NCBI GenBank assembly: GCA_947450675.1
Contig: CANFWI010000005.1
Location: forward strand, 45,270-109,269
Length of the DNA: 64,000 nt
Source of the DNA: Comamonadaceae bacterium
GTDB lineage: Bacteria; Pseudomonadota; Gammaproteobacteria; Burkholderiales; Burkholderiaceae_C
Reading direction: 5' to 3'
A program made the position numbers and the translations under genes. The notes beneath the pieces were generated by a model. That model had not been told where the DNA came from. It saw only the letters and a program-made list of their open reading frames with translations, and ran no database searches. Below, one piece after another: positions 33,582 through 52,820 of this stretch (positions are counted from its first letter, which is position 1; every line of letters begins with the position of its first letter).

Positions 33582-33612
33582 GAATTGAATTTCTTTCAAC
33601 ATCTTGTTTTAC

Positions 33613-33637
33613 TTCAACTGTTCAATTATAGTTGAAC
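33613..33637. promoter_or_regulatory. ArsR operator between arsC and arsR
   Basis: GTTCAA-ttatag-TTGAAC (33620-33637) is a perfect 6-bp dyad, and an outer TTCAACT...AGTTGAA pair (33613-33636) overlaps it. It lies directly before the arsR ATG and 32 bp before the arsC ATG, the usual place for an ArsR site. Confidence 0.75.
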
Positions 33638-33638
33638 G

Positions 33639-33995: not shown

Positions 33996-34002
33996 AGGAT
34001 CC

Positions 34003-35055
34003 ATGATGGGATTGTTTGAACGCTATTTAACGCTATGGGTCGCACTGGGTATTGCCGCTGGCGTCGGACTGGGTTTGTCGGCTCCGGCTGCATTTCAAGC
34101 CATCGCCGGGATTGAATATGCACAGGTCAATCTGGTGGTGGCCGTCTTCATCTGGGTGATGATTTACCCGATGATGATCCAGATCGACTGGTCAGCGGTC
34201 AAGGACGTTGGTAAAAAACCGCGCGGTTTGCTGCTCACCTTGGTGGTGAATTGGCTCATCAAGCCATTCAGCATGGCCTTGCTGGGCGTGCTGTTTTTCA
34301 AGTACATCTTTGCACCTTGGGTCGACCCACAGTCTGCGTCTGAATACATCGCTGGCATGATCTTGCTCGGCATTGCGCCCTGCACCGCCATGGTGTTTGT
34401 GTGGAGCACGCTGGTCAAGGGCGACGCCAACTACACCTTGGTGCAAGTCACCCTGAATGACTTGATCATGGTTGTTGCGTTTGCCCCGATTGCTGCATTT
34501 TTACTGGGCGTCACCAACATCAGCGTGCCATGGGAAACACTGGTGCTGTCGACACTGCTCTACGTGGTGTTGCCCTTGTTAGCCGGTATGGCCACACGCC
34601 ACGTATTGCAAAGACAATCCGGCCACGCCGTCGCTGATTTTGTGGGATGGCTCAAACCTTGGTCGATGATCGGCCTGCTGGCCACGGTGGTGCTGCTGTT
34701 TGGTTTTCAAGCCGTCACCATCGTCGCGAAACCGCTGGTCATCGCCATGATCGCGGTGCCGATGATCATTCAGAGCTACGGCGTTTTCCTGATCAGCTTT
34801 GCGGGCGCCAAAGCCCTGCGGTTGCCGCACAACATTGCCGGCCCTGCTTGCCTGATCGGCGCATCCAACTTTTTTGAACTGGCGGTCGCGGTAGCGATCT
34901 CTCTCTTCGGTTTGAATTCAGGCGCAGCACTCGCCACCGTGGTGGGCGTGCTGGTCGAGGTACCCGTGATGCTGTCACTGGTGGCCATCATCAACCGCAC
35001 ACAACATTGGTTTCCAAGTCAGGCAGTTGCGGCCCGATCTCAAGGCAAGGTGTAG
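34003..35055 (+). CDS. ACR3 family arsenite efflux permease
   Basis: Inner-membrane arsenite exporter with about ten helices and 350 residues. The essential cysteine C127 lies in [13 protein letters not shown] and the essential glutamate in [15 protein letters not shown], both ACR3 hallmarks that separate it from ArsB. Co-transcribed with arsR. Its last 16 bases overlap the convergent methyltransferase gene. High-affinity phosphate uptake also imports arsenate, so location inside a Pho region makes physiological sense. Confidence 0.95.
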
Positions 35056-37132: not shown

Positions 37133-37199
37133 TGACCCTTTTTAAAATCGCTGGACACCGAAAGGCGTCCTACAGCATGGGTCAGTTTGATACACTTGT

Positions 37200-37228
37200 T
37201 TGACACCCTCATGTCAACTTCATGTCGA
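37200..37228 (-). promoter_or_regulatory. Candidate PHO box before the phytase-like gene
   Basis: Minus-strand half-sites TCGACAT (37228-37222), TTGACAT (37217-37211) and GTGTCAA (37206-37200), each 11 bp apart. Only the last has the exact TGTCA core; the others have TGACA or CGACA, a variant seen at several sites in this window. Confidence 0.5.
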
Positions 37229-37273
37229 TTCAACATCGCTGAACGGTGGTGGCGCAGGGCCTGTGCGAATGGC

Positions 37274-38227
37274 TTACTTTTCGCTCTCAATGAGACGGAC
37301 AGCGAAGGGCATGCGCTCACGCACATCGACGGTGACATGAACCGCCCGGACGTCACTCGCGCCAGGCACTTCGAGCCGGGTCAGGTTCGTCAACGGCTTT
37401 TTTTCTAACGTGAAAGGCTGGTCAAAGCGGAACACATGGCTGTCGCCATGAATCAGCAACACCGGGACAGCCGACTCTGCCGCCAACGGCAGCAAGGTGT
37501 TGCCGATGCTGTTTCGAAAGCCCGAGTGACCCGGAAAGTCTTCCCAGTTGGACTTGCTTTCAAAAATATCCGCCTGCATGGCAAACACAAGCGCCTTGGC
37601 CGAAGACTGTCGCGCATAGGCAAAGGCTTGACGAATCCACGCCACATTGGCTTTATCACGCTCAAAATATTCCGCGACCGCAGCTGGCTCGCGTACTTCG
37701 AAATTATTGTTGCTGCCAACGATGTGCAAGGTCACGAAAAGCACCTGCTGGTGTAGCCAGCGCTGGTTCTCAATAAATTGAACGTGTGCAGGATCCAATC
37801 TGGACTGGTTGTCCAGCTGCAACGGAACTTTGCCCAAAGACTGGCCTAGCGTGAAGAAGCGTTGGCGCAATGCATGCAAGCGTTCCTGCGGGTCGTAGGC
37901 ACCGTTGTTGGCACGGTGGCAGTCGGTCCATTCGTTGTCGCCTGGCGTGTAGACAACGGCGGTTTCAAACAGATTGAAGTGCCCCAGTTGCGCCACTGAC
38001 TCTTGATCCGAGCACCGGGTCGATCCCGACTTGATATCACCCACGTGAATCGAAAACGGCGGATGAATCTTGTTGATAGTGCTGATCAACGCCCGGTATG
38101 GCGGGTAAGCATGCGCCTCGTCGCCATAAGGCAGGTCGCCGAGGGCAACAAAGCTGAAGGGCTGAGCATGAGCCGCGAAAGCAGCCAAAAAACTCAGGCT
38201 CAGCCAGCCCAGACGACACAGTTTCAT
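37274..38227 (-). CDS. Secreted calcineurin-like metallophosphoesterase
   Basis: Exported phosphoesterase of 317 residues when started at the ATG at 38227, which gives a signal peptide MKLCRLGWLSLSFLAAFAAHA. Metal-binding motifs: ALGDLPYGD, IHVGDIKSG, YTPGDNEWTDCH (the GN[H/E] equivalent is GDNEW), and LIHGDSHVF. It lies 29 bp after the alkaline phosphatase gene on the same strand and is probably co-transcribed. I infer a periplasmic phosphomono- or diesterase used in phosphate scavenging; substrate unknown. Confidence 0.85.
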   Translation of the reverse strand: MKLCRLGWLSLSFLAAFAAHAQPFSFVALGDLPYGDEAHAYPPYRALISTINKIHPPFSIHVGDIKSGSTRCSDQESVAQLGHFNLFETAVVYTPGDNEWTDCHRANNGAYDPQERLHALRQRFFTLGQSLGKVPLQLDNQSRLDPAHVQFIENQRWLHQQVLFVTLHIVGSNNNFEVREPAAVAEYFERDKANVAWIRQAFAYARQSSAKALVFAMQADIFESKSNWEDFPGHSGFRNSIGNTLLPLAAESAVPVLLIHGDSHVFRFDQPFTLEKKPLTNLTRLEVPGASDVRAVHVTVDVRERMPFAVRLIESEK

Positions 38228-38256
38228 CACAGCATCAAGCAAGTTGAAGCAGACGG

Positions 38257-40302
38257 TTACTTCTGCTTAGCCGCTTGCAGTCCCGCCGGCAACACGACTC
38301 CTTTGACGGCAGCTTGGGCCATCTTGAAGAAGACGTCGGTGTTGTCCATCACGCCGGTGAACGAGTAAGCGCCAGGCCCAAAAGCCGATAAAGGAATGTC
38401 GCTGGCGGTGTGCACGGCGCTGTTGCCCGGCACCTGGCCGGTGATCATGAACTTGCCTTGGGCATCGCGCTGGCTGGGATCGACCGGGTAAGCCGCCAGC
38501 GGTTGCGTTTTGACGAAAGGCTGCTGGCTGTCCTGCACCGGCAGTGGGTTCGTGCGGTAGTCTTCAAAACGGTCTGAGTTGGCGCCGTAAGCCACCAACA
38601 GGCGGTGGTCAATGTCGGTGGTCTCCGGGTAGCCGTCTGCAGCAATGCGGTATTTGGGGAAACCAGCGGTTTCGTAAATACCAACGGTTTTGTCACGCAA
38701 AGCCGGATCACCATCCCGTACCAGTTCTTGCAGACGGGCGTCGCTGACGATGGAGCCACCGATCAGCGCCACACCCGCGCACTCGTGGTCTGCGGTGACG
38801 ATGACCAAGGTGTCGCCGCGTTTGGCGGCAAAGGCTTGGGCCAGTTTCACGGCGCGGTCGAACTCAATGGTGTCCAGCAACCAGCGTTCTGTGTCCATGG
38901 CATGGGCTTGTTTGTCGATCGACGCGCCTTCCACCATCAACACAAAACCTTCCTTTTTCTTCTCCAACACGCGCAGCGCGGTGGTCGTCATTTCATCGAG
39001 CATGGGTTGGTCTGGAAAACCGTAGTCGTCGACCACTCGGTTGTTACCCGCATTGCCCAAGCCTTGACCTTTTTGGCGGCGGCCGTCGATTTTGTCCAGC
39101 GCAACATTCATGTTGGAGTGAGAAAACAGACCCAGCAAGTGGCTGGTTTTTCCGCTGTCAATCGCGTCCATCTCGGTTTTGTTGCCGGCGTAAGCAAAGC
39201 CCGCGGCTTGAAAGTCGGCCAGCAGATTGCGGTCTTTGTCCTTGCTGCCAGGCGCTGCGCCCCAAGCTTTGACGATGTCTGTGGTGTGCGCTTCGGTGCT
39301 AGAAAAAGCGTAGTCGGATTTATCACCACGGGCTGAACCGGGCGTGCTGGCCGGTACAAACCACTTGCGTCCGCCGCCCATCAAAACGGACAAGCCGCTG
39401 AGTTTTCGGTCGTCCAAGTACTGGTCAACAATGCCGGTGCCAGCGCCGCGGTTGCTGGTATGAACCGCATTGGCTGCGGGCGTTGCGTCAAAGACATCGG
39501 CGGTCGTCACCAAGCCGAGGGCTTTGCCTTGGGTCCGGTGCAGGTATTCGCTCAGGTATTCGATGCGCGGGTTGTCAAACGCGTCCAGCGTGTCGTCGGG
39601 GAACACGCCTTGCTCGTTGTTGTTGTTTTTGTTGCCCAGCGCATAAGCGCTCATGCCGGGGGCAGAGTCAGTGACGATTGAGTTCAGTGACGCGGTTTTG
39701 ACCATACCGGTGACGGGGAAGGTGTCCATCGCCAAGGGCTGAACCACCTTGCCCTGAGCGTAGCCACCGGCCACGATACGAGCCGCCGTGCGCTGCGCCG
39801 CGCCCATGCCGTCGCCCAACATGATGATGATGTTCTTGATCTTTTGTCCGCCAACGACCAAGGGCACGATTTCAAAATTGCCTTTGGCGCTGACCGTCTG
39901 CCCGTCGCTCTGCGTCGCCGTCACCGTGAAGGTGTGAATGCCTTGTTGGATCACGCTCAGGGCGCGGCTCGAAACGATGGCGGCATTGGCCGGCACGCCT
40001 TTGTTGCAGAACGCTTCGCAAGACTTGATGGCGACGTTGGCGTTGAGCGCTTTGCCGTCGATAGAGAAGCGGGCGGCGGTGATGGTTTTGCTGGCGTCGT
40101 CCGGTCGCACCGTGGCTTGCAGGTCAAAGCGTTGGCCAGGCAAAAAGCGCGCAACGATAGGGCCTTCTGCGTGGCCGCTGAACAGCTCGCTGGGCGGCGT
40201 CAGGCGCGTGACGCTGGGCGCGGCTTGCGCGGCCGTGCTGGCCAAAACACACAGAGTGATGGCGGCGAGTCGATACAAAGGTGCGGGAATCGGGTGATAC
40301 AT
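38257..40302 (-). CDS. phoA: PhoA-family alkaline phosphatase
   Basis: Periplasmic alkaline phosphatase (PF00245). Started at the ATG at 40302 (GGATC upstream), it has a signal peptide ending AAQA and 681 residues. An N-terminal domain of about 115 residues, not in E. coli PhoA, precedes the catalytic domain. Metal and active-site parts: MLGDGMG (D164), nucleophile S213 in TDSAPGMSAY, VEGASIDKQAHAMD, VTADHECAGVALIG, and HTASDIPLSAFGPGA. The residue after the nucleophile pair is Pro where most members have Ala. Follows the 165-residue secreted protein gene and precedes the phosphoesterase gene. Confidence 0.93.
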   Translation of the reverse strand: MYHPIPAPLYRLAAITLCVLASTAAQAAPSVTRLTPPSELFSGHAEGPIVARFLPGQRFDLQATVRPDDASKTITAARFSIDGKALNANVAIKSCEAFCNKGVPANAAIVSSRALSVIQQGIHTFTVTATQSDGQTVSAKGNFEIVPLVVGGQKIKNIIIMLGDGMGAAQRTAARIVAGGYAQGKVVQPLAMDTFPVTGMVKTASLNSIVTDSAPGMSAYALGNKNNNNEQGVFPDDTLDAFDNPRIEYLSEYLHRTQGKALGLVTTADVFDATPAANAVHTSNRGAGTGIVDQYLDDRKLSGLSVLMGGGRKWFVPASTPGSARGDKSDYAFSSTEAHTTDIVKAWGAAPGSKDKDRNLLADFQAAGFAYAGNKTEMDAIDSGKTSHLLGLFSHSNMNVALDKIDGRRQKGQGLGNAGNNRVVDDYGFPDQPMLDEMTTTALRVLEKKKEGFVLMVEGASIDKQAHAMDTERWLLDTIEFDRAVKLAQAFAAKRGDTLVIVTADHECAGVALIGGSIVSDARLQELVRDGDPALRDKTVGIYETAGFPKYRIAADGYPETTDIDHRLLVAYGANSDRFEDYRTNPLPVQDSQQPFVKTQPLAAYPVDPSQRDAQGKFMITGQVPGNSAVHTASDIPLSAFGPGAYSFTGVMDNTDVFFKMAQAAVKGVVLPAGLQAAKQK

Positions 40303-40337
40303 GGGGTGATCCAACTGGGTGGGGTTAAAACAAAGAC

Positions 40338-40835
40338 TCAATGCGCGTGTTGTTGGGCTTCAAAGTAGCGTGTCAGTTCGGTGCTGTCCATGCCGCGGGT
40401 GGCCTCTGTGGGCAACACCAGCCGGACCCAAGAAACCCGGCCATCGGTTTCCTCTAAGCGGCCCACACTCAAGCGGCCGGTGATCGACAACAGGCCGCGC
40501 GTGTAGGGAATCAGCCAGTCTTTTTGCGCATCGTCCAAGTAGACCGTGACCAGCGCGGCTGGCAAATCATCGGCCTCGCCGTCAGCATGCTCGCTCATTT
40601 GCACGGGCCGAGGCGACAGCATGAAGCGCCCCAGATGGGGAACTTCTTGCTGCACCATGTAGCCGGTGATGCGCACCGTCTGACCGTTGGCGGATGTCAG
40701 CTTGGCGCTTTGCTCCAAACCCTTGGAGCCCATCGGCAGATTGAAAAATTCTTTAAAAAACAATTCTGGTGCGACCTGCGCCGACGCCGCCATGCAGACA
40801 AGCCAGACGGCAAGACCAAGAAGTAGCTGTCGCAT
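40338..40835 (-). CDS. Small secreted protein of unknown function, phoA operon
   Basis: 165 residues with a signal peptide MRQLLLGLAVWLVCMAASA. No recognised catalytic motif. The body contains a predicted beta-rich segment, SANGQTVRITGYMVQQEVPHLGRFMLSPRP, reminiscent of small periplasmic OB-like or DUF3299-type proteins, then an acidic EHADGEADDLP and a GLLSITGRLSVGRLEETDGRVSWVRL strand region. It is 35 bp before phoA on the same strand and likely co-transcribed, so a role in phosphatase export, metal loading or phosphate scavenging is possible. Confidence 0.75.
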   Translation of the reverse strand: MRQLLLGLAVWLVCMAASAQVAPELFFKEFFNLPMGSKGLEQSAKLTSANGQTVRITGYMVQQEVPHLGRFMLSPRPVQMSEHADGEADDLPAALVTVYLDDAQKDWLIPYTRGLLSITGRLSVGRLEETDGRVSWVRLVLPTEATRGMDSTELTRYFEAQQHAH

Positions 40836-41006: not shown

Positions 41007-42317
41007 ATGTCGCTTGAAAATCTAATCGCCATGTTGGGGAAACAAAAGTTGGTTGACGGCATGGTTCACAGCCAAAAAATGCACAAACATGACGTCGTGC
41101 AGTCCTTGCTTCAAAAGCAACACGATGCGGAACTGCATAACTTCATTGCCAAACAAAGTTCAACCGAACTGGGCGGCTACTTGGACTCCCTGCCGGTGGA
41201 CGAAGCTCTGAAACTCTGGGCCAAATTGCCGCCAGAGCGCGAAAACGATGTCCTCTGGGAAATGTCGGATCAACGGCGATCAGACATTGCCGGCGACCGT
41301 CAGCCTGATTTTTCCGAAAGCAAAATCAATGTCTACGAATTGGCGGATGGGCGTTTGCGCCACATACCCATGGCGGGCCGAAAAGATTTAGAGGGTGCCA
41401 AACCCGTTTGGGTTGACCTGATCAACTCATCTAAAGCCGAGCGGCTGTTTGTGGGTTCCCACTTTGGCGTGGAACTGCCAGACCCCATTGAGGCGACTGA
41501 CCTTGAAGTGAGTGCGCGTTTTCATGTCGAAGAAAACGACGACATTCATCTCCACTCTAATTTTTTGCATGACCGTGAAGGCAATACCAGAAGTGTTCCC
41601 GTCGCTTTTATTTTGCACGGGGGCATTCTTTTTTCATTGCGCAACGAAGAACTGCCGGTCTTCAGATTACAGCGCCGCCGCGCTCTGACACAGCCAGGTT
41701 CTGTGTCGGATTGCGTTGACCTGCTGTTAGATCTGTATGGTGCGGACGTTGAAGTCTCTGCCGATTCGCTTGAAAACATCTATGCCAAGCTCGCGGCTGT
41801 CGGGCGGCACGTGCTGAGCGAGGCGATCACCGACCAAGAGGCCGCCGGAATTCTGGCTGACATCGCGGAAGAAGAAGATCAGAACGGCCGTATTCGCAGC
41901 AATATTTTGGACACGCAACGGGCCTTTAGTTTTTTGATGCGCGGGCGTTTGCTGACGCCGGATCAAATTTCAGACTCCAAGCAGATTTTGCGAAACATCG
42001 AATCACTCAACAGCCACACCGCCTTTTTATTCGACAAGATTAATTTCTTGATGGATGCCACCATCGGCTTCATCAACATCAACCAGAACAAACGTGTGAA
42101 CCAATTGACGGTGTTCAGCGTGGTGTTCATGCCCATCAATATTTTGGCGGGTATGGGCGGCATGTCTGAGTTTTCAATGATGACGCAAGGTATTGAATGG
42201 CCGGTGGCCTATGGCAGCTTTGTGCTGGTCTCCGGATTGATCGGGCTCGCCACCTACGTGCTGCTCAAACATGTCGAAAAGCGCCGTGTGAAGAAAACCA
42301 GTAGCAGAGTTGGCTGA
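41007..42317 (+). CDS. CorA-like divalent-cation transporter with MgtE-N-like start
   Basis: 436-residue membrane protein. The N-terminal 85 residues (VVQSLLQKQHDAELHNFIAKQ...LPVDEALKLWAKLPPERENDVLWEM) resemble the superhelical MgtE N domain; the rest is a CorA-type cytoplasmic funnel and two C-terminal helices. The pore region reads FSVVFMPINILAGMGGMSEFSMM near 370-390: the canonical GMN is replaced by GMGGMSEF, so ion choice may differ. A PHO-box-like element with a pstS-like -10 stands upstream. Magnesium transport fits the need to balance cations when phosphate or polyphosphate changes, but that is inference. Confidence 0.8.
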   Translation: MSLENLIAMLGKQKLVDGMVHSQKMHKHDVVQSLLQKQHDAELHNFIAKQSSTELGGYLDSLPVDEALKLWAKLPPERENDVLWEMSDQRRSDIAGDRQPDFSESKINVYELADGRLRHIPMAGRKDLEGAKPVWVDLINSSKAERLFVGSHFGVELPDPIEATDLEVSARFHVEENDDIHLHSNFLHDREGNTRSVPVAFILHGGILFSLRNEELPVFRLQRRRALTQPGSVSDCVDLLLDLYGADVEVSADSLENIYAKLAAVGRHVLSEAITDQEAAGILADIAEEEDQNGRIRSNILDTQRAFSFLMRGRLLTPDQISDSKQILRNIESLNSHTAFLFDKINFLMDATIGFININQNKRVNQLTVFSVVFMPINILAGMGGMSEFSMMTQGIEWPVAYGSFVLVSGLIGLATYVLLKHVEKRRVKKTSSRVG

Positions 42318-42381: not shown

Positions 42382-42410
42382 GCGTCATTGAAGCGTCATA
42401 GATCTGTCGA
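42382..42410 (+). promoter_or_regulatory. Three tandem PHO half-sites before lplT
   Basis: GCGTCAT (42382), GCGTCAT (42393) and CTGTCGA (42404) begin exactly 11 bp apart. A TTAATA -10 candidate lies nine bases after the last one (42420-42425), and lplT starts at 42442. The phase, orientation and -10 spacing agree with a PhoB-activated promoter. Confidence 0.6.
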
Positions 42411-42441
42411 ACCACTGACTTAATAGGCCACCACAATCAGC

Positions 42442-43668
42442 GTGATGCCTGTCGGTTTTCATCTCATCATCGCCGCCCAATTTGTGTCGGCACTTGCGGA
42501 CAACGCTTTGTTAATCGTGTCGATTGCTCTTTTGTCAGAGCAAGGTCTTCCGGCATGGTGGGCGCCCATGCTGAAGTTCGTCTTCACCATTTCCTACGTC
42601 GTGTTGGCCCCGTTTGTAGGCCCTTTGGCAGACGCCGTTCCCAAAGCCCGCTTGATGGCCTGGATGAACGGCGTCAAAATTCTCGCTGTCGCAGCTTTAC
42701 TGTTTGGAATCAACCCACTCATCGCCTTTGCCATCGCGGGCTTGGGCGCTGCCGCCTATGCACCAGCCAAGTACGGCCTGATCACCGAGATTGTCGGCCC
42801 CAAACTCTTGGTCAGAGCCAATGGCTGGGTTGAGACCTCTGTCGTCTGCGCGGCACTGTTGGGCGCCGTGATGGGTGGCGTCTTGGTCAACACCCGAGTG
42901 ATCGACATGTTGAATGGGCTGTTGAGTGGTCTTCACGTCGGGCTCATGTCGCCGCTCAGCACCTCCCTGCTGGTGCTGCTGCTGATCTACGGCTTGGCGG
43001 GTCTGCTCAATCTGGGCATTCCGCACAGCGGCGCTCGCTACCCCGCCAGCGCGATCCACCCACTGGTGTTGATGCGAGATTTTTGGCGGGCCAATCGGCT
43101 GCTGTGGCGGGACGCTGAGGGCGGCATGTCGCTGGCGGTCACGACCATTTTTTGGGGCCTCGGTGCGACGCTGCAATTCGTGGTTTTGAAATGGTCAGCA
43201 GACGTCTTGCACCTGCCGCTGGAACAGGCGGCCTACCTGCAAACGGCGGTTGCCGTCGGCATCGTTGTCGGAGCGGTGATCGCTGGCCGATGGGTTGCCC
43301 TGCACCACGCCCGTCGAGTCCTCCCGGCAGGTGTTGTGCTGGGCTTGCTGATCTCGGTCATCGCCTATGTCCAAGACGTCCGTATCGCGCTGTTGACGTT
43401 GGCTTGCATTGGTGCCGTCGGTGGCATTTTGGTGGTCCCGCTGAATGCCCTGCTACAGCACCGCGGATTCTTGTTGCTGACCGCTGGCAGGTCGGTGGCC
43501 GTGCAAGGTTTCAATGAAAATCTGAGCGTGCTCTTCATGCTCGGAATGTACGCCACGCTAGTTTCGGCCAACGTCTCGATTGTGCCGCTCATGACCGTGT
43601 TGGGTCTGGCCGTCGCGTTGGCGATGGGGCTGCTGATCGAGCGCGGACAGCGCGCGTTACCGACCTGA
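42442..43668 (+). CDS. lplT: Lysophospholipid transporter LplT
   Basis: MFS-type inner-membrane flippase that brings lysophospholipids back to the cytoplasm for reacylation. The start MPVGFHLIIAAQFVSALADNALLIVSIALL is the family hallmark (F/L..xxxFxSALADNALL), followed by VLAPFVGPLADAVPKARLM and AAAYAPAKYGLITEIVG. 408 residues from a GTG at 42442, or 407 from the ATG at 42445. E. coli lplT is paired with aas; no aas is seen here. The tandem PHO half-sites upstream suggest induction in phosphate starvation. Confidence 0.9.
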   Translation: MMPVGFHLIIAAQFVSALADNALLIVSIALLSEQGLPAWWAPMLKFVFTISYVVLAPFVGPLADAVPKARLMAWMNGVKILAVAALLFGINPLIAFAIAGLGAAAYAPAKYGLITEIVGPKLLVRANGWVETSVVCAALLGAVMGGVLVNTRVIDMLNGLLSGLHVGLMSPLSTSLLVLLLIYGLAGLLNLGIPHSGARYPASAIHPLVLMRDFWRANRLLWRDAEGGMSLAVTTIFWGLGATLQFVVLKWSADVLHLPLEQAAYLQTAVAVGIVVGAVIAGRWVALHHARRVLPAGVVLGLLISVIAYVQDVRIALLTLACIGAVGGILVVPLNALLQHRGFLLLTAGRSVAVQGFNENLSVLFMLGMYATLVSANVSIVPLMTVLGLAVALAMGLLIERGQRALPT

Positions 43669-43693
43669 ATTCAGCGCCAGCAAGCGCTTATTG

Positions 43694-44908
43694 CTAGACG
43701 ACAACTCTGGATTGATCGATCACCTCTTGCAGCGCGTCTTCGAACTTCTGCACGATATGCGTCCAGTCCAATTGCATCGACGTCTGCCTGGCTGCCGCGC
43801 CCATCTGCTTGCGCTGCAGAGGCTCGGCCGCCAACGCCAGCGCGGCCGACACAAAACCATCTGCATCGGTGACGGGCACCAGGCTGCCATTGACATTGTC
43901 GACAATTAGCGCTGCGGCAGCGGCGCAATCGAAGGCCACCACGGGCAAGCCGCTGGCCATGGCTTCGGTGGTCACATTGCCAAAGGTCTCGGTGAGACTG
44001 GGCATCAAAAAAAGATCGGCTGACGCGTAGTGTTCGGCCAGTGCCTTGCCCCTCAATTGCCCAGAAAAAATGGCTTTAGGACAGCGAGCTGTCAACTCCT
44101 GCCGCATCGGACCGTCCCCAACCAGCACCAAACGGGCCCGGGCGTCACGCGCCTCAATCGCCTCGAAAGACTTCAGCAGCAAAGCTAAATTTTTCTCATG
44201 GGCAAGCCGTCCCACGCAGACGACCGCCAAGTCACTCGGTGCAAGCCCCCATTGCATACGCAACTCTTCGCTGCGGTGTGCGGGGTCATAGGCCAGCGTG
44301 TCAACGCCCCGGCTGACGACTTTCAGTCTTTGAAACCCGACGTCTGCCAAAGCGGCCCGCAAGGCTTCCGTTGGCACCATGGTGCACTGTGCATAGTTAT
44401 GGAACTTCCTGAGGTAGGCCATGATCGGCTTGTACAAAAAGCCAACCCCATAGTGGGCGCTGTAACTCTGAAAATTAGTTCGGTAATCGGTGGAGACGGG
44501 CAGCCGGAGGTACATGGCCGCGCGCAGGGCCGACCAGCCGAGCGGGCCTTCGGTTGCAATGTGAACCACATCGGGCCGCTTGAGTTGCCATAGCCGGATC
44601 AGGGCGCTCTTAGACGGCATGCCCATGCGCAACTCTGGGTAGCGGGGGATCGGAAATCCACGCATCAAGACCTCTTGGTAGGCTGGATGCATCTCTTCTT
44701 GGCACGCGGCATCTGTACCGTTTTGGCGCAAACGAATCAGCTGAACCGCGTGATTAGCAGCGCGCAAACCGTCCACCACTTTGGCCAGTGTCACGGCCAC
44801 ACCGTTCACCTCGGGTGGATACGTTTCTGAAACAACCGCCACACGCAGGGAGCGACGATGTGCCGGGAAATTGTCAACGAGCAAGTTGTGAGCATATTCA
44901 TAAGCCAT
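43694..44908 (-). CDS. GT4 glycosyltransferase, second Agt/MgtA-like paralogue
   Basis: GT-B glycosyltransferase of the same group as the gene at 23616. Motifs: LRVAVVSETYPPEVNGVAVTL, VVHIATEGPLGW, VPTEALRAAL, GRLAHEKNLALLL and EX7E in LTETFGNVTTEAMASG. I start at the ATG at 44908, giving 404 residues; the frame extends to 44980 without similarity, and the homologous region only begins near residue 22, so the true start may be later still. Neighbours lplT and ugd suggest membrane glycolipid synthesis. A weak PHO-like pair lies close upstream. Confidence 0.8.
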   Translation of the reverse strand: MAYEYAHNLLVDNFPAHRRSLRVAVVSETYPPEVNGVAVTLAKVVDGLRAANHAVQLIRLRQNGTDAACQEEMHPAYQEVLMRGFPIPRYPELRMGMPSKSALIRLWQLKRPDVVHIATEGPLGWSALRAAMYLRLPVSTDYRTNFQSYSAHYGVGFLYKPIMAYLRKFHNYAQCTMVPTEALRAALADVGFQRLKVVSRGVDTLAYDPAHRSEELRMQWGLAPSDLAVVCVGRLAHEKNLALLLKSFEAIEARDARARLVLVGDGPMRQELTARCPKAIFSGQLRGKALAEHYASADLFLMPSLTETFGNVTTEAMASGLPVVAFDCAAAAALIVDNVNGSLVPVTDADGFVSAALALAAEPLQRKQMGAAARQTSMQLDWTHIVQKFEDALQEVIDQSRVVV

Positions 44909-44930
44909 CCCCAGATGATGTCGCCACTTC

Positions 44931-44948
44931 GTAACAAATTGATGACAA
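44931..44948 (-). promoter_or_regulatory. Weak PHO-like pair before the second GT4 gene
   Basis: Minus strand TTGTCAT-CAAT-TTGTTAC: first half-site good, second with one core change. It is only 23 bp from the chosen start codon, which would give a near-leaderless transcript unless translation starts later. Confidence 0.35.
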
Positions 44949-45069
44949 CTCGCTTCTTCAAATTGAAACGCTCTCGTCACGAAACTTTCATACAGAGGGA
45001 CTAAATTGGGTTCGCTCTCTTGATCCGCTTGGGCGCAGCGCCCTTTCCCCCAAACTATGTGAGGCTCAT

Positions 45070-45678
45070 GTGAACGATTTTTTTCAACAGTTAAAGACCC
45101 AGCGCTGGGATGACCACCGGTATTACCACCACAGCCGAATCAACCAGTCTTTGCACCTGCTCAGTGCGATCAGTTTTGTCACCGCCTATGCGCTGCTGTT
45201 TGTCAATCCTGCCTGGGCAGCCTTATTGGCTTGGTCGGTGTCGATGTCGAGTCGTCAAGCCGGACATTTCTTTTTTGAACCGCGCGGCTATGACACCGTC
45301 AACCAAGCCACCGACGCTCACAAAGAAGAGATCAAAATTGGCTACAACATCCGCCGCAAGGTGGTGTTGCTGGCCGTCTGGGCTTTGGTGCCTGTGGTGT
45401 TGTGGCTACAACCCTCACTGTTTGGACAGATCGATCCCGCCAGCGGCGTGATGGAATTTTTGAACGATGTCGGCTTGGCTTGGCTGGCACTGGGTGTGGC
45501 CGGTTTGGTGTTTCGTGTGCTCCAGCTTTGGATTCAGCAAGACTTGTGGACGGGCATCGTCTGGGCCATCAAGATCATCACCGACCCTTTCCACGACATC
45601 ATGCTGTACCACAAGGCCCCCTTGGCTTTGTTGCGCGGCGAAATGATCGACCCCATGGAGCACGTCAACCACAAGTGA
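45070..45678 (+). CDS. Small polytopic membrane protein, possibly Mpo1-like
   Basis: 202 residues from a GTG (GAGG five bases upstream). About four to five hydrophobic segments. The N-terminal RYYHHSRINQSLHLLSAISF and the SRQAGHFFFEPRGYD segment recall the Mpo1/DUF962 family (YHRxPxNxxxH and HxxFE motifs), a group that includes a 2-hydroxy-fatty-acid dioxygenase with essential histidines. The likeness is partial and I am not sure of it. C-terminal part HDIMLYHKAPLALLRGEMIDPMEHVNHK is unusually polar. It stands in the lplT-ugd cluster, so a lipid role would fit. Confidence 0.6.
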   Translation: MNDFFQQLKTQRWDDHRYYHHSRINQSLHLLSAISFVTAYALLFVNPAWAALLAWSVSMSSRQAGHFFFEPRGYDTVNQATDAHKEEIKIGYNIRRKVVLLAVWALVPVVLWLQPSLFGQIDPASGVMEFLNDVGLAWLALGVAGLVFRVLQLWIQQDLWTGIVWAIKIITDPFHDIMLYHKAPLALLRGEMIDPMEHVNHK

Positions 45679-45687
45679 GCCAAGACA

Positions 45688-45715
45688 CCCTCAGGACTCG
45701 CGCGAGTCCTGAGGG
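45688..45715. terminator. Perfect 13-bp inverted repeat between convergent genes
   Basis: CCCTCAGGACTCG (45688-45700) and its exact complement CGAGTCCTGAGGG (45703-45715) with a 2-bp centre. It separates the ends of the membrane-protein and aminotransferase genes, as bidirectional terminators do, though no T-run follows on either side. Confidence 0.6.
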
Positions 45716-45723
45716 CTTGAAGC

Positions 45724-47370
45724 TCAACGCGGCTGTCGCAACATCTCCCGGAAGATCCCTTTTCGAATGGTTTGATTGGTTTGCTCTGGACCACTCCACC
45801 AGCCATCGTTTTGCATGGCTTGGACAGCGTCTGCAAAGCGTCGGACGACCTCCCCAAACTCAACATCACCATAGTTCAAACTGAAAATGAGACGGCCACT
45901 GCCAACCCAGCTCAAGGCCAGTCCATGCGCGCGCAAGTAAAACTGCAGCATCCAGTTGTAGCGAGACGGCTGGGTGTAAAGCACCGTCCAAACGGTCGAC
46001 ATATTCGCCACCCGAACCGGCAAACCCTGCTCCTCCAACCGGCCGTTCAGCAGCTTGGCCCTGCCGTCCCAGCGCTCATCAATGCGGTCATACAGCTTAG
46101 CAATCGCGGGGGTTTCCAGCGCATCGAGAAAAGCCTTCATGGCGCCCATCACGTAAGGGTGTGCATTGAAAGTGCCGCGCGCAAAACAAATGTCGCCCGG
46201 CCGATCATCCCGGTAACGCTTCATCAACGCCGACCGGCCGCAGACCACGCCCACCGGCAGACCGCCGCCCAGCGTTTTGCCATAGGTCACCATGTCAGCC
46301 TGAATGCCAAAGTAGGCTTGCGCCCCGCCCTGTGCCAAGCGGAAGCCGAGAAACACCTCGTCAAAAATCAGCACGATGCCGCGCTCAGTGCAAACCGCCC
46401 GCAGCTTTTTCAGCCAGTCGGTATAAGCCGCACGGTCATAGGCCACCCGACGGCTGCTGTCGACCAGCGACGAGTCACCGGGTGCGGGCGCATTGGGGTG
46501 CAAAGCTTGCAGCGGGTTGACCAACACACAGGCAATGTCATTGCGCGTACGCAAAACATGGAGAGTGCGTTCGTCCATCTCTTTGAGTGTGTGGGTTTCT
46601 CGCGGCGGCAACGGATTGCCGGGGCCGGGTTGAACGTCTTCCCACCAGCCGTGGTACGAGCCGCTGAAGCGAACCAGATGACTGCGCTTGGTGTGGTAAC
46701 GGGCCAAGCGCACGGCCTGCATCACCGCTTCAGTGCCGGACATGTGAAAGGACACTTCGTCCAATCCAGAGATGGCTTTGAGTCGGTTCACGTTCTCCAG
46801 CACGCAAGGGTGGTACGCCCCCAAGACGGGCCCGAGGTCTTTCACCAGTTGCTGACCGGCTTCAATGCTGGCCTTGTAAAAGTCGTAGCCCAAAAGGTTC
46901 ACGCCGTAAGAGCCAGTCAAGTCATAAAAAACATTGTCATCCAAGTCGGTCACGGTGACGCCCTGCGACGACTTCACAAAACTGCCGCTTTTGATGTGTT
47001 GGCTCAGGTAGTCGCTGTATTGGTAAGGCACCCGGTAACGGCCGGTGAACTGCAGGTCCGAAATGATCTCGCGGGCGCTGGCTGTCATGGCGGCACTCTT
47101 GGGGAAACGCTCAGCGTAGAGCGCCGCCAATTTGGCAAATCCATCGCGGCGTCGCTGCACCACAGTGCTGTCGGCATGGTCCGAATTGAAGAAGGTTGCC
47201 TCGTCATAGGCATAGCCGGGGAGCAGCCCAGCGATGCGTTTGGCGATGCGCGAATGTCCGGCCAAAGATCGATGCTTGGCGCGGGAGAGTTCAATCCGTC
47301 GCTTGGCCTTGGGCAGTGCCCAAGCCAAAAGGCCCAATGCCAAAAACGGGAGAGCGATGTTGTCGTCCAT
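45724..47370 (-). CDS. Membrane-anchored class III aminotransferase (GSA-aminomutase type)
   Basis: PLP enzyme of 548 residues. Residues 4-20 are one hydrophobic segment, followed by a basic KAKRR, so it is probably anchored in the inner membrane with the catalytic domain in the cytoplasm. Fold-type I motifs: SGTEAVMQA (211-219), RFSGSYHGWW, LIFDEVFLGFR (D337), and the PLP lysine K365 in TYGKTLGGGLPVG. An N-terminal extension of about 100 residues separates anchor and core. It resembles glutamate-1-semialdehyde aminomutase relatives used in lipid, polyketide or antibiotic pathways, not hemL itself. Divergent from psd. Substrate unknown. Confidence 0.78.
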   Translation of the reverse strand: MDDNIALPFLALGLLAWALPKAKRRIELSRAKHRSLAGHSRIAKRIAGLLPGYAYDEATFFNSDHADSTVVQRRRDGFAKLAALYAERFPKSAAMTASAREIISDLQFTGRYRVPYQYSDYLSQHIKSGSFVKSSQGVTVTDLDDNVFYDLTGSYGVNLLGYDFYKASIEAGQQLVKDLGPVLGAYHPCVLENVNRLKAISGLDEVSFHMSGTEAVMQAVRLARYHTKRSHLVRFSGSYHGWWEDVQPGPGNPLPPRETHTLKEMDERTLHVLRTRNDIACVLVNPLQALHPNAPAPGDSSLVDSSRRVAYDRAAYTDWLKKLRAVCTERGIVLIFDEVFLGFRLAQGGAQAYFGIQADMVTYGKTLGGGLPVGVVCGRSALMKRYRDDRPGDICFARGTFNAHPYVMGAMKAFLDALETPAIAKLYDRIDERWDGRAKLLNGRLEEQGLPVRVANMSTVWTVLYTQPSRYNWMLQFYLRAHGLALSWVGSGRLIFSLNYGDVEFGEVVRRFADAVQAMQNDGWWSGPEQTNQTIRKGIFREMLRQPR

Positions 47371-47412
47371 ATAGTCCTCTGTTTTAAAACTTCACCACCC
47401 TAACTTTCATTT

Positions 47413-47430
47413 TTGACAGGCATATGAAAA
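47413..47430 (-). promoter_or_regulatory. Weak PHO-like pair between aminotransferase and psd
   Basis: Minus strand TTTTCAT-ATGC-CTGTCAA; the second half-site is good, the first poor. It overlaps the psd start codon. No clear -10 follows toward the aminotransferase gene. May be chance. Confidence 0.2.
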
Positions 47431-48311
47431 CTGATTTTTTTCGCCAATTTTTTCTTCAGGAAGACATCAACTTCCTGCTCACCAACCGGGTACCGCGTAT
47501 CTTGCTCACCCGAGCCATGGGCTGGTTCAGTCATATCCGCAGCCCCTTTCTCGCGCGCGCGTCGATTCGGGTCTGGCGCTTGTTCACCGAGCTTGACTTG
47601 AGCGACGCCAAGCAGCAAAACTTTGGCAGCCTGCATGACTGCTTCACCCGTGAACTGAAACCCGGCGCAAGAACGATCAACCCGGACCCAACGGTCATGA
47701 GCAGCCCTAGCGACGCCATCGTCGGCGCATGCGGTCGGGTTGTTGATGGCTTGGTGATACAGGCCAAGGGCTTTCCGTATTCCATCGCCGAGCTCTTCGG
47801 CGCCAGTCAAGACACGAGCGCGTTCAACGACGGGACCTACGTCACCTTGCGTTTAACGTCTGGCATGTACCACCGCTTCCACGCACCGCATGACATGACC
47901 GTGGAGCATGTGACCTACATCAGCGGTGACACCTGGAATGTGAACCCAATCGCCCTGAAAAGAGTCGAGCGTTTGTTTTGCCGCAATGAACGCGCAGTGC
48001 TGCGCGCGCGCTTGACAGCCACCGGCCACCCGATCGCGTTGGTGCCTGTGGCCGCCATTTTGGTGGCCAGCATGCGCCTGCATTTTTTGAACGTGTTGCT
48101 GCACTTGCGCTACCGAGGCGCCAATGAAATGCCTTGCGCCTCCAAATGCGTCAAAGGTCAGGAGTTGGGCTGGTTTGAACATGGTTCAACCATCATTGTG
48201 TTTGCACCGAAGGGCTTCGAATTGTGCAACGGCATTCAGAACGGTCAACAAATTCGAATGGGTCAAGCGCTGATGCAGTTACCCCAAGCGACCACTGTTG
48301 GATGTCATTGA
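47424..48311 (+). CDS. psd: Phosphatidylserine decarboxylase
   Basis: Inner-membrane enzyme making phosphatidylethanolamine; matures by self-cleavage to a pyruvoyl enzyme. The catalytic parts align with E. coli: D97 in SPSDAIVG, H150/H153 in MYHRFHAP, and the cleavage site S255 in HGST, where most members have LGST. The length of 295 is usual. Starting with MKTDFFRQFFLQEDINFLLTNRVPR. The His in place of Leu leaves the essential Gly-Ser intact, so activity is likely. It shares a short divergent promoter region with the aminotransferase gene and is followed by ugd. Confidence 0.92.
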   Translation: MKTDFFRQFFLQEDINFLLTNRVPRILLTRAMGWFSHIRSPFLARASIRVWRLFTELDLSDAKQQNFGSLHDCFTRELKPGARTINPDPTVMSSPSDAIVGACGRVVDGLVIQAKGFPYSIAELFGASQDTSAFNDGTYVTLRLTSGMYHRFHAPHDMTVEHVTYISGDTWNVNPIALKRVERLFCRNERAVLRARLTATGHPIALVPVAAILVASMRLHFLNVLLHLRYRGANEMPCASKCVKGQELGWFEHGSTIIVFAPKGFELCNGIQNGQQIRMGQALMQLPQATTVGCH

Positions 48312-48341
48312 TTTGACGCACTAACGTCATCATCTCGACAC
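48302..48341 (+). promoter_or_regulatory. Four phased PHO-like half-sites before ugd
   Basis: Half-sites begin every 11 bp: ATGTCAT (48302), TTGACGC (48313), ACGTCAT (48324) and TCGACAC (48335). The first overlaps the psd stop. Single matches are degenerate but four in register are unlikely by chance. The -10 is not obvious. Confidence 0.5.
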
Positions 48342-48395
48342 GCTTCCCAGCGACGATGAGTCCCCAGATAGACCCCTAAAAATCTGGAGTGCCTC

Positions 48396-49781
48396 ATGAA
48401 GATCAGCGTATTTGGTGCCGGCTATGTCGGCTTGGTGACGGCAGCCTGTTTGTCCGAAATGGGCAACAGTGTGATGTGCGTTGACGTTGACACCCAACGG
48501 GTGGCCAACCTGCAGCAAGGCATCACCCCGATCCATGAGCTGGGCTTGGAGCCGCTCTTGCAACGGAACGCTGCAGCAGGTCGACTGACCTTCACCAACG
48601 ACATGGCAGCCGCTGTGGCACACGGCACGATTTTGTTCATCGCCGTTGGCACACCTGCCGCCGAAGACGGTTCTGCCGACCTGCAACATGTGATGAGCGT
48701 TGCGCACACCATCGGTGAACACATGCACGACTTCAAGGTCGTGGTGAACAAGAGCACGGTGCCCGTCGGCACGGCAGATCTGGTGCGCAAGACGATTGCA
48801 AACGCCTTGCGCCAGCGCGCCACGGTACTGCCTTTTTCTGTCGTGTCGAATCCGGAGTTTTTGAAAGAAGGCGTCGCCATTGACGACTTCATGCGGCCAG
48901 ACCGCGTCATCGTCGGCTGCGACAACGAGCAAGCCGCGCTGCTCATGCGCGCCCTGTACTCACCTTTTCTGCGCAATCGAGACCGCCTGATCATGATGGA
49001 TGTTCGCAGCGCAGAGCTGACCAAATACGTGGCGAATGCCATGCTGGCCACACGCATCAGCTTCATGAACGAGATGGCGCTGTTGGCCGAAAAAGTCGGC
49101 GCGGACATTGAGCATGTGCGCGTTGGCATCGGCAGCGACTCGCGCATCGGCACCCATTTTCTTTACGCCGGTTGCGGCTGGGGCGGCTCATGCTTTCCAA
49201 AAGATGTTCGGGCATTGGCCCATATCGCCGAAGAAGCTGGCGCTGAATTAAACATGCTGAAAGCGACGCAAGCCATCAACGACCGCCAGCGCGGTCTGCT
49301 GGGCCGGCGCGTCGTGGCGCGCTTCGGTCAAGACCTGAGCGGCCTGCAGTTTGCTGTCTGGGGCTTGGCCTTTAAACCGGGCACCGACGACATGCGCGAG
49401 GCACCCAGCGTGGACTTGATCAACGAGCTGTTACGCCGCGGTGCACGGGTCAAAGCCTTCGACCCGGTGGCGATGCAGCGGGCTGATGAGATCTGGGGCG
49501 AGCAAGCAGGATTTGAGTTATGCAAGGAACCACTCGCTGCGGCTAACGGATCAGATGCACTGATCGTCGTGACCGAGTGGCGCGAGTTTCGCAGTCCTGA
49601 TTTTGCGGAACTCACCCAGCGCTTAAAGCAACCCGTCATCTTGGATGGCCGCAACTTGTACGAACCCAGCTTGATGGCCGAGCTGGGATTTGACTACACC
49701 GGCATCGGTCGTGCAGCTGGCACAGACGCCGTTGAAAGCGAACAGCAGGGATTCAAGACGCACACCTCTCTTGCAGCTTGA
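48396..49781 (+). CDS. ugd: UDP-glucose 6-dehydrogenase
   Basis: Oxidises UDP-glucose to UDP-glucuronate with two NAD+. N-terminal NAD fold begins [32 protein letters not shown] (151-159) and the catalytic C266 in [10 protein letters not shown] are present, with the C-terminal UDP-binding region [17 protein letters not shown]. Length 461. TGGAG precedes the ATG by six bases. Phased PHO-like sites upstream and nearby GT4 genes suggest it supplies glucuronate for glucuronosyl-diacylglycerol, though capsule or lipopolysaccharide synthesis is the usual alternative and no such cluster is here. Confidence 0.95.
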
Positions 49782-49859: not shown

Positions 49860-51068
49860 ATGTCCACCCGCCAGACGCGCACAGTCACCTGCCTAGGGCT
49901 GGCGCAAACGCTGGCTTGGGCGTCGAGTTACTACTTGCCCGCCATGTTGGCGACGTCGATGGCGCGCGATTTGGGCATCAGCACGCCACTTGTTTTTGCA
50001 GGCTTTTCACTGGCGCTGCTGGTCTCCGCCGTGCTAGGGCCGCTGGCTGGAAAAGCCATTGACCGCTACGGCGGCAGACTCATCCTGATGCTCAACAGCC
50101 TCGTCTTTGCACTCGGCCTGACAGCATTGGCACTGGCACAAGGCCCTGTTGGGATGTTCGTGGCCTGGAGCATTCTGGGCGTGGCCATGGCCGCAGGTTT
50201 GTATGAAGCGGCCTTTGCGACGCTGGTGCATCTGTACGGCCAGCGCTCCCGTGGCGCGATCACCGGCATCACTTTGATGGCCGGCTTCGCCAGCACCATC
50301 GGCTGGCCGCTCTCGGCGTGGCTGGAGTTGGAATGGGGCTGGCGCAGTGCCTGCCTGACTTGGGCTGGTCTGCATTTATTTTTGGGCTTACCCCTGTACA
50401 GTTTGCTTTCCAAAACGCCTGCTCTAAAAGCATCTGACAACACAGACAGTGCAACGCATGCGCCCGTCATGTTGGCAGCAGCGACGTCTGCTGACACGGA
50501 CAACACAACACGATCCGCCGTGCTGCTGGCTGTTACCTTCGCCATCACTTGGTTCATCAGCACCGGCATGGCGGCCCACCTGCCGCGGCTGCTGCAGACC
50601 GAGGGCGTGCCGCTGGCCACTGCCTTGCTGCTGGCGGCCTTGGTTGGGCCCGCGCAAGTGGCTGGCCGCTTGCTCGAATACGGCTTATTGAGACAGGTTC
50701 ATCCGGTCATCTCAGCGCGAGTGGCGGGCGCATTGCATTCAGTCGGGGCACTGACTTTTTTGCTGCTGGGCGTCCCTGCCGGCGCAGTTTTCACGCTGTT
50801 GCATGGCGCCGGCAATGGCGTGCTGACGATTGCCAAAGGTACCTTGCCCTTGGTGCTGTTTGGCCCCAAAGACTACGGACTGCGGCAAGGCATCTTGATG
50901 GTGCCGGCACGCTTCGCGCAAGCGCTGTCTCCGTATCTGTTTGGCTTAGCGATTGACCGCTACGGCGCTGGTGCTTTGTGGTTTTCAGCCGCACTCGGCG
51001 GGATCGGCTTCGCCGCTTTGATGCGGCTGCCCGGCCCCAGCCAACAGACGCCTCAGGCAGCAGCCTGA
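49860..51068 (+). CDS. MFS transporter
   Basis: Twelve-helix major facilitator of 402 residues. The MFS loop 2-3 motif is readable as GPLAGKAIDRYGGRLIL, and a related GLAIDRYGAG occurs in the second half. It resembles the monocarboxylate/oxalate-type and aromatic-acid MFS groups but the substrate cannot be told. A soluble linker of about 35 residues, rich in Ala, Thr and Asp, joins helices 6 and 7. Its 3' end overlaps the convergent dusA by 16 bases. Confidence 0.85.
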   Translation: MSTRQTRTVTCLGLAQTLAWASSYYLPAMLATSMARDLGISTPLVFAGFSLALLVSAVLGPLAGKAIDRYGGRLILMLNSLVFALGLTALALAQGPVGMFVAWSILGVAMAAGLYEAAFATLVHLYGQRSRGAITGITLMAGFASTIGWPLSAWLELEWGWRSACLTWAGLHLFLGLPLYSLLSKTPALKASDNTDSATHAPVMLAAATSADTDNTTRSAVLLAVTFAITWFISTGMAAHLPRLLQTEGVPLATALLLAALVGPAQVAGRLLEYGLLRQVHPVISARVAGALHSVGALTFLLLGVPAGAVFTLLHGAGNGVLTIAKGTLPLVLFGPKDYGLRQGILMVPARFAQALSPYLFGLAIDRYGAGALWFSAALGGIGFAALMRLPGPSQQTPQAAA

Positions 51069-52079: not shown

Positions 52080-52484
52080 TCAAGGTTTCCAAAACCGGTC
52101 AAGGTCAAATGACAGCTGCTTGTGGTGCTTGATTGACACCAAATAGATGATGGGTGGTCGAGTGGCCGTCGCGTCCAAGACCGCATAAAGCACCACATAG
52201 TTCGTCATCACGTACTCTCGCATATCGGCTGGCTGCTCATACGCTGCCATTTTTGCGTGAAGCTTTGCAAGCCGCGCCTGCGCTTCAACAGACTCCGGAC
52301 TGCGATGCATGAATGACCGGCCGAGGCTTGGATGCCGCTCCAAGTGGGTCACGACCGTGTCGATCAACTCGTCAAGCAATTGATCATAGCCCGCTGGAAA
52401 CTTGTTATCGGCCCAGAAGCTCTCGATGCTCTGGAGGTTGGTTTCAAAGTTGGCGGTGTAACGAACTTCCAGCACGTCAGGCAT
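52080..52484 (-). CDS. RelE/ParE family toxin
   Basis: Probable toxin of a type II toxin-antitoxin pair, 134 residues from the ATG at 52484. The fold pattern fits RelE/ParE: VRYTANFETNLQSIESFWAD, a helical LDELIDTVVTHLERHPSLGR, and C-terminal strands YVVLYAVLDA, PPIIYLVSIKHHKQL. It is larger than usual RelE (about 90-100 residues). It overlaps the antitoxin gene by eight bases. Whether it cleaves mRNA (RelE) or poisons gyrase (ParE) cannot be told. Confidence 0.78.
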   Translation of the reverse strand: MPDVLEVRYTANFETNLQSIESFWADNKFPAGYDQLLDELIDTVVTHLERHPSLGRSFMHRSPESVEAQARLAKLHAKMAAYEQPADMREYVMTNYVVLYAVLDATATRPPIIYLVSIKHHKQLSFDLDRFWKP

Positions 52485-52788
52485 TGCCACCTTGCTGCGT
52501 GCGCTGGCGCTTCGCACGCAGCGCGGTCAGTCCTTCGCGCGCATGTTGGGTTCGACCGGCTTCAATGTCAGCCCAGCCCTGCTCGGCTTCGCCCAACAGC
52601 AGCAAATGGATCTGCGAACGCTCCAGCCGGTGATAGTGATCTAGTCGCTTGGCGTCGATCATGGCGACCACGGGCTCACCGTTCTTGGTGATGATTTTTT
52701 CCGCGCCATTTTCGACTTCTTGGACCAAGTCGGACAAATTCATCCGCGCTCTCGAAAAAGCCACGATATCTTTGACAGAAACAGTCAT
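52477..52788 (-). CDS. Phd/YefM family antitoxin
   Basis: Antitoxin partner, 103 residues from the ATG at 52788. N-terminal DNA-binding Phd fold with MNLSDLVQEVENGAEKIITKNGEPVVAMIDAKRLDHYHRL, the usual ITKNGxPVAxL-type hallmark. The C-terminal tail, rich in charged residues, should wrap the toxin. A perfect palindrome 33-58 bp upstream is the likely self-operator. Confidence 0.85.
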   Translation of the reverse strand: MTVSVKDIVAFSRARMNLSDLVQEVENGAEKIITKNGEPVVAMIDAKRLDHYHRLERSQIHLLLLGEAEQGWADIEAGRTQHAREGLTALRAKRQRTQQGGNA

Positions 52789-52820
52789 AGGGTGCCTCAG
52801 CAATCAGCGGTTATAAATGT

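Follow-up and report, generated by a model that had tools for sequence, protein, structure and literature searches.

Bacteria that run short of phosphorus replace phospholipids with phosphorus-free lipids, those known being mainly glycolipids, ornithine lipids and diacylglyceryltrimethylhomoserine (DGTS). The locus described here lies in a stretch of 64,000 nucleotides from a Comamonadaceae bacterium (the window; G000:C5:45270-109269) and holds a trio of genes, encoding an aminotransferase (AT), a second enzyme of the phosphatidylserine decarboxylase (Psd) family (psd2) and an Mpo1-like membrane protein, that may build a further lipid of this kind. The closest described system is the PlcP-Agt phosphorus-stress remodeling of Phaeobacter, SAR11 and Pseudomonas, with which the locus shares probable PHO-box control, a genomic PlcP, a nearby glycosyltransferase and, by prediction, diacylglycerol as a hub (PMC4796936; PMC8528852). 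The genes described beside plcP are btaAB, agt and other glycosyltransferases, and the main text of that article contains neither the word "aminotransferase" nor the word "decarboxylase" (PMC4796936). Unlike the PlcP-Agt system, the present loci add AT, the second Psd and the Mpo1-like protein, with a plcP relative in 35 of 114 loci. Among the papers listed by searches of open-licence literature, none gave a pointer to the trio. Since the plcP neighborhoods described in these sources also come without it, the trio is called here a new form of phosphate-starvation lipid remodeling, possibly leading to a new lipid.

Two other pathways invite comparison. The BtaA/BtaB pathway to the betaine lipid DGTS would likewise give cells under phosphate stress a diacylglycerol lipid with a nitrogen-bearing head and no phosphorus; unlike it, the window's genome has no BtaA match (PF11899), and full-length BtaA matches occur in 1 of 36 AT genomes against 17 of 44 PlcP genomes without AT, a contrast confounded by phylogeny. 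The Psd/PmtA route to phosphatidylethanolamine (PE) and phosphatidylcholine shares the Psd fold and catalytic residues with the locus, and a methyltransferase, PmtA-like where named, lies beside the trio in 13 loci, but here the Psd is a second copy, about 30% identical to the ordinary enzyme and paired with AT and the Mpo1-like protein.

A conserved trio of genes

A preliminary description of the window named six adjacent genes (lplT, GT4, membrane protein, aminotransferase, psd, ugd) as a possible second phosphate-linked lipid-remodeling module. All six are present in the order lplT(+), GT4(-), Mpo1-like(+), AT(-), psd(+), ugd(+), though they do not form one operon, as GT4 and Mpo1 diverge from each other and so do AT and psd. 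Only part of this set is conserved as a unit, namely AT, the second psd and the Mpo1-like membrane protein, usually with a glycosyltransferase of family 4 (GT4). In the window it consists of:

43694-~44908, minus strand: GT4 glycosyltransferase (PF13692, 118 bits)
44931-44948, minus strand: PHO-box-like site facing GT4, 10/14, at a position matching 12-13/14 sites in L041 and L045
44974-44991, plus strand: second PHO-box-like site, facing Mpo1, 10/14, at an offset shared with relatives
45070-45678, plus strand: Mpo1/DUF962-like integral membrane protein, candidate iron oxygenase (PF06127, 22.6 bits; cut-off 24)
45724-47370, minus strand: AT, class-III pyridoxal phosphate (PLP) aminotransferase of 548 aa (PF00202, 113 bits)
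47413-47430, minus strand: PHO-box-like site between AT and psd2, 11/14, overlapping the psd2 start codon
47424-48311, plus strand: psd2, second Psd-family enzyme, divergent partner of AT (PF02666, 192 bits; cut-off 22)

Searches for AT covered a sample of 120 genomes from the order and one of 398 from the phylum (cut-off E 1e-60; taxonomic classes inferred from kinship) and found matches in 14 and 25 of them, respectively, or 36 distinct genomes. The phylum matches, the window's own aside, are all 52-73% identical and near full length, and no weaker match appeared before the E 1e-60 cut-off was reached. The trio is intact in 35 of the 36 AT genomes, while in the remaining one (G243, L127) the contig ends inside a GT4 fusion. 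Relatives of psd2 and Mpo1 lie within short loci in 29 of these genomes and after the GT4 fusion in six more (L145, L146, L147, L149, L150, L151), and psd2 adjoins AT in all 14 AT genomes of the order sample (n=120).

Gene neighborhoods were compared over 114 loci, repeats included and some truncated by contig ends, made up of 80 named loci, 33 genome loci found by AT match and one (L029) found by psd match; the named loci are the best 80 of 584 relatives and are thus biased to close relatives. AT is present in 113 of the 114, psd2 in 112, the Mpo1-like gene in 109 and GT4 in 93 (plus six with the fusion), against 39 for lplT, 35 for plcP, 20 for ugd, 14 for olsB and 13 for the methyltransferase family. 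When the 113 loci with AT are collapsed to 91 distinct clusters at 95% AT identity, psd2 is kept in 89, Mpo1 in 88 and GT4 or the fusion in 78, compared with 28 for plcP, 26 for lplT, 15 for ugd and 11 for olsB. The commonest order, psd< AT> Mpo1< GT4>, is found in 77 of 113 AT loci. Pairwise distances correlate most strongly within the trio (AT-psd 0.82, AT-Mpo1 0.74, psd-Mpo1 0.71) and less with GT4 (0.46-0.66). The neighborhood survey thus bears out a module that keeps AT, psd2 and Mpo1, and usually GT4, together across the 91 distinct loci, often with flanking PHO matches, though lplT and ugd, given equal standing in the preliminary description, are optional. Hosts include lake metagenome genomes and, by record titles, isolates of Paucibacter, Roseateles, Variovorax, Sphaerotilus, Polynucleobacter and Dechloromonas, and these named isolates make the trio testable. 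Three cassettes (L064, L075, L097) lie on metagenome contigs titled Bordetella parapertussis, titles that are probably misassigned.

The psd2 product has the PF02666 fold, the Asp-His-Ser triad and the GST self-cleavage motif by which Psd enzymes are recognized, the triad and GST residues being those that serve catalysis and self-cleavage in Psd; D97, H150 and GST254-256 (L033 numbering) are retained in at least 95% of 112 psd2 relatives. The preliminary description had taken this gene for ordinary PE synthesis; it stands here in addition to an ordinary Psd: the window's genome carries another psd on contig C21, 31% identical to psd2, and a further PF02666 match lies away from the cassette in every one of the 30 genomes inspected (G064 and 29 of the 36 AT genomes), being weak and partial in G213 (22 bits) and cut by the contig end in G052. 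In these samples psd2 shares about 30% identity with the ordinary Psd copies and 40-73% with its orthologues. Such "second psd" genes are annotated as ordinary phosphatidylserine decarboxylases. Beside psd2 at L023:12323-14976, three genes in a row encode a 366-aa protein with weak similarity to BtaA (PF11899, 51 bits) and, as recognized by eye, a lookalike of an oxidase of the heme-oxygenase type and a protein resembling the GNAT family; by its AT this genome clusters with Betaproteobacteria bacterium UKL13-2 (L088). In a genome from a different class (L148:4465-8000), psd2 adjoins a pair of neighboring proteins that belong to a single cluster, one of them confirmed as a PhoD-like phosphatase.

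In AT, the PLP lysine K365 is invariant in 45 aligned sequences, and an AlphaFold2 (AF2) model predicts an N-terminal helix at residues 6-31 that may be a membrane anchor. The closest solved structure is the AMT domain of mycosubtilin synthase (6kfm), which aminates a carrier-bound acyl substrate; unlike that domain, AT stands alone, has the predicted N-terminal helix and lies among lipid genes, not polyketide or nonribosomal peptide synthase genes. Some sources attach the name HemL (glutamate-1-semialdehyde aminomutase) to relatives of AT, an identity rejected for AT because its hemL score is 166 bits against a cut-off of 527. In genome G064 an AT remnant with 126 matched residues (L029:9549-9926) sits between Mpo1 and psd2; this genome also is without PlcP, and retains psd2, Mpo1 and GT4 beside the remnant.

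The Mpo1-like family is matched by PF06127 in 48 of 50 members at E<=0.01 (best 1.4e-5), and H16, H20, H29, H66 and E70 are invariant in the 50 sequences, making the protein a candidate iron oxygenase; its AF2 model is all-helical with a pLDDT of 90.5. The GT4 reading frame opens at 44980, with a PHO-like site inside the resulting N-terminal extension, so that the gene probably starts at the ATG near 44908. The top and third NCBIfam models for GT4 are lipid glycosyltransferases, both far below their cut-offs, and in some genomes of another class the trio's GT4 is replaced by the GT4 family that adjoins plcP.

PHO-box matches and predicted diacylglycerol supply

PHO sites were scored as matches to the 14-base consensus given in PMC8528852. 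The preliminary description had placed phased PHO half-sites before lplT and ugd, and these do not exceed chance: the lplT site, at 10/14, is equaled by 45 of 200 dinucleotide shuffles and the ugd site, at 9/14, by 115 of 200. It overlooked signals between AT and psd and between GT4 and Mpo1. The window's AT-psd2 intergenic site scores 11/14, which none of 200 shuffles reaches; among the sites listed, these letters are shared by the window's close relatives alone. Its GT4-Mpo1 site (10/14) is equaled by 33 of 200 shuffles and is not significant alone; the site facing GT4 lies 121 nt from the conserved GT4 codon, as do the 12-13/14 sites in L041 and L045, and the Mpo1-facing site lies 164 nt from the conserved codon, as in L033, L034, L035, L037, L038 and L041. 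Upstream of the OlsB-type gene a site reaches 12/14 (1 of 200 shuffles).

Across loci, matches of at least 11/14 occur in 27 of 99 psd|AT intergenic regions against 6 of 297 dinucleotide shuffles, in 51 of 81 Mpo1|GT4 regions against 9 of 243, and upstream of plcP in 11 of 35 against 1 of 105, compared with 42 of 806 upstream regions of other genes and 3 of 339 regions inside AT. Upstream of lplT (5/39 against 4/117 shuffles) and ugd (4/20 against 1/60) the signal is weak. The two core regions stand out in distinct loci as well (psd|AT 21/79 against 11/790 mononucleotide shuffles; Mpo1|GT4 36/61 against 4/610). Sites of 13/14 lie between psd2 and AT in L134, L137, L138 and L140, all four from a different class, so that the PHO link spans more than one lineage. 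From these matches, the divergent promoters of the trio and GT4 are likely under PHO control.

AT also co-occurs with PlcP. In the order sample PlcP is found in 14 of 14 AT genomes against 44 of 106 others (Fisher 1.5e-5, kinship ignored), and in the phylum sample in 18 of 25 against 131 of 373 (Fisher 4e-4, kinship ignored). Seven AT genomes of the phylum sample lack PlcP, and these seven, with no others among the 398, carry a PHP-like+GT4 fusion, the sequence search for which covered the phylum sample. The fusion, about 890-960 residues long (a contig end truncates one copy), directly follows AT and consists of an N-terminal domain with PHP-like metal motifs, read by eye, followed by GT4. 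The simplest view is that its PHP-like domain replaces PlcP and is a candidate new phospholipase C for lipid remodeling. AT thus occurs only with PlcP or the fusion in the phylum sample, and the trio goes with predicted diacylglycerol production from phospholipids. The genes concerned are:

24680-25588 of the window, minus strand: PlcP-like metallophosphoesterase, candidate diacylglycerol-generating partner (presumed name; best NCBIfam model LpxH-type, below cut-off)
23616-24683 of the window, minus strand: second GT4, adjoining plcP, the GT4 of the PlcP-like pair
L145:10502-13174: PHP-like+GT4 fusion
L146:3674-6355: PHP-like+GT4 fusion
L147:6374-9106: PHP-like+GT4 fusion
L149:2359-5025: PHP-like+GT4 fusion
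L150:2719-5385: PHP-like+GT4 fusion
L151:6607-9483: PHP-like+GT4 fusion

Predicted pathway and competing explanations

The combination of an amine-adding enzyme, a decarboxylase suited to an amino-acid head, an oxygenase-like protein, a likely lipid glycosyltransferase, a diacylglycerol source and likely PHO control leads to the proposal that the trio builds a phosphorus-free, amine-headed lipid from diacylglycerol or glycosyl-diacylglycerol at low phosphate, to which a probability of about 0.45 is tentatively assigned. PlcP, or the PHP-like domain of the fusion, would release diacylglycerol from phospholipids, and GT4 would glycosylate it, with Ugd-supplied UDP-glucuronate as the donor in some lineages. 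The Mpo1-like protein would oxidize or cleave the head group, AT would move an amine onto a carbonyl of the membrane-bound substrate, and Psd2 would decarboxylate the resulting α-amino-acid head to a simple amine (ordinary Psd converts a serine head to ethanolamine), which a PmtA-like methyltransferase may N-methylate in some genomes of another class. The order of the steps is provisional and the product is a predicted lipid only. Core conservation, the flanking PHO matches and the restriction of AT to genomes with PlcP or the fusion lend support to the second lipid-remodeling module linked to phosphate starvation of the preliminary description, in which the amino-modified lipid that it raised as a possibility is the likely novel part. 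Kept across the phylum and strictly tied, in the sample searched, to a diacylglycerol supplier, the PHO-flanked trio points to a further surrogate lipid; if so, a class of "second psd" genes would gain a function, the PHP-like fusion would become a candidate PlcP replacement, and the predicted lipid would let cells save phosphorus.

A bolder and very unlikely version, though one that fits the set of enzymes, has the trio reshape the sugar of a glycosyl- or glucuronosyl-diacylglycerol into a mimic of the PE head that lacks phosphate. The Mpo1-like protein would act as a dioxygenase that opens the ring, AT would convert the carbonyl acid to an O-linked amino acid, and Psd2 would yield an aminoethyl ether that a PmtA-like enzyme, where present, would methylate to a betaine lipid of the diacylglycerylcarboxyhydroxymethylcholine (DGCC) type. 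According to a passage in a 2023 paper, nothing was known of DGCC synthesis (PMC10685587), and this version, if true, would provide the first genes for such a DGCC-type route.

Several points weigh against the proposal of an amine-headed lipid. The window's Mpo1-like protein scores below the PF06127 cut-off and its model has no clear match among solved folds; a Psd2 with ordinary catalytic residues could simply make PE; and the PmtA-like score is 151 bits against a model cut-off of 390. GT4 and the fusion are both missing from 13 of 91 distinct loci, some of them truncated, and GT4 subfamilies differ among lineages, so that GT4 may act on a separate lipid. The PHO sites are consensus matches only, and 20 of the 57 distinct loci that have both intergenic regions fall short of 11/14 in each of them. 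On the diacylglycerol side, the co-occurrence tests are uncorrected for phylogeny, the identity of PlcP is presumed from its sequence and GT4 partner, not assigned by a model, and the PHP-like label found no match in Pfam profile or PDB sequence searches.

The retained Psd residues, the co-occurrence of PlcP with AT, and LplT and a PldB-like hydrolase nearby (81 bits, cut-off 362) would also fit phosphoethanolamine salvage, in which Psd2 boosts PE formation from phosphatidylserine, PlcP cleaves the PE to give diacylglycerol plus phosphoethanolamine, and AT degrades phosphoethanolamine or ethanolamine, freeing phosphate and nitrogen; ETNPPL, a phospho-lyase of the class-III fold in animals, offers an analogy. 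This is unlikely, however, as AT is nearest to mycosubtilin AMT and GSAM-type enzymes, with none of 57 listed solved relatives named phospho-lyase, and its predicted helix suits a membrane substrate. Salvage also leaves the Mpo1-like protein and the methyltransferase unexplained, and G064, without PlcP, has an AT remnant yet keeps psd2. The same AMT relationship lends itself to a different, equally doubtful account, in which AT aminates a β-keto acyl chain, the Mpo1-like protein α-oxidizes hydroxy fatty acids, changing the acyl chains of ornithine or other aminolipids, and psd2 is incidental. The best solved AT relative is a domain that makes β-amino fatty acids, the Pfam name of Mpo1 gives 2-hydroxy-palmitic acid as its substrate, and OlsB- or OlsF-type genes lie nearby, but psd2 is bound to AT as tightly as Mpo1 is, and the OlsB-type domain PF13444, found in 13 of 14 AT genomes and 82 of 106 others of the order sample, is not specific.

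The preliminary description itself proposed, for phosphate starvation, lysolipid recycling by LplT, PE synthesis by psd and a glucuronolipid made by GT4 and ugd, with the aminotransferase as a loose addition. The families to which it assigned LplT, GT4, Psd and the sugar dehydrogenase hold, and lplT adjoins the core in several arrangements, though the scheme as a whole is quite unlikely, given how much rarer lplT and ugd are than psd2 and Mpo1 in distinct loci, that PE synthesis does not require a second Psd, and that lplT has no clear PHO enrichment. Least probable is that GT4 and ugd serve capsule or lipopolysaccharide with the remaining genes as chance neighbors: the top Ugd model is TuaD (489 bits, below its cut-off of 700) and L030 has a gene encoding an Arnt_C domain close to the trio, but the genes that recur nearby are of the PlcP, LplT and Ols types and come with PHO-box matches, and ugd is missing from 94 of 114 loci.

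Optional neighbors and the surrounding phosphate island

Genes of the OlsB/OlsF type, the methyltransferase family (its L134 member is PmtA-like) and lplT are recurrent neighbors of the core. Three optional or recurrent neighbors lie in the window:

42442-43668, plus strand: lplT, lysophospholipid transporter, optional neighbor (equivalog NF008397, 478 bits; cut-off 297)
48396-49781, plus strand: "ugd", nucleotide-sugar (UDP-glucose type) dehydrogenase, optional neighbor (subfamily TIGR03026, 440 bits; cut-off 189.8)
31346-32218, minus strand: presumed OlsB-type acyltransferase (ornithine lipid), recurrent core neighbor (PF13444, 119 bits)

Where present, lplT is never more than two genes from the core (39 of 39 loci), beside GT4 or psd2, and thus looks like a real but optional partner. 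UDP-glucuronate supply is recurrently linked to the module, through ugd in 20 of 114 loci and, in L149, through a different Ugd-type gene directly after Mpo1. The glucuronolipid and lysolipid branches are possible side branches.

Genes taken from their sequences to be Pst/PhoU-PhoB-PhoR genes lie at 5209-11889 of the window, which also carries, upstream of the module, a presumed phn (phosphonate-type) cluster, and a phytase-like protein and an alkaline phosphatase lie at 35771-40341, just ahead of the six-gene stretch. Arsenic genes sit inside this phosphate island at 33219-35055 and 49860-51068, one of them directly after ugd; by their sequence starts they are ArsC-, ArsR- and ACR3-like, with an ArsK-like MFS protein at 223.8 bits (cut-off 400). 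A Mg transporter of the CorA type, matched weakly by MgtE_N, adjoins lplT (41007-42317) and is found in only 6 of 114 loci, and a pair at 52080-52803 resembles, by eye, a prevent-host-death/RelE-type toxin-antitoxin module.

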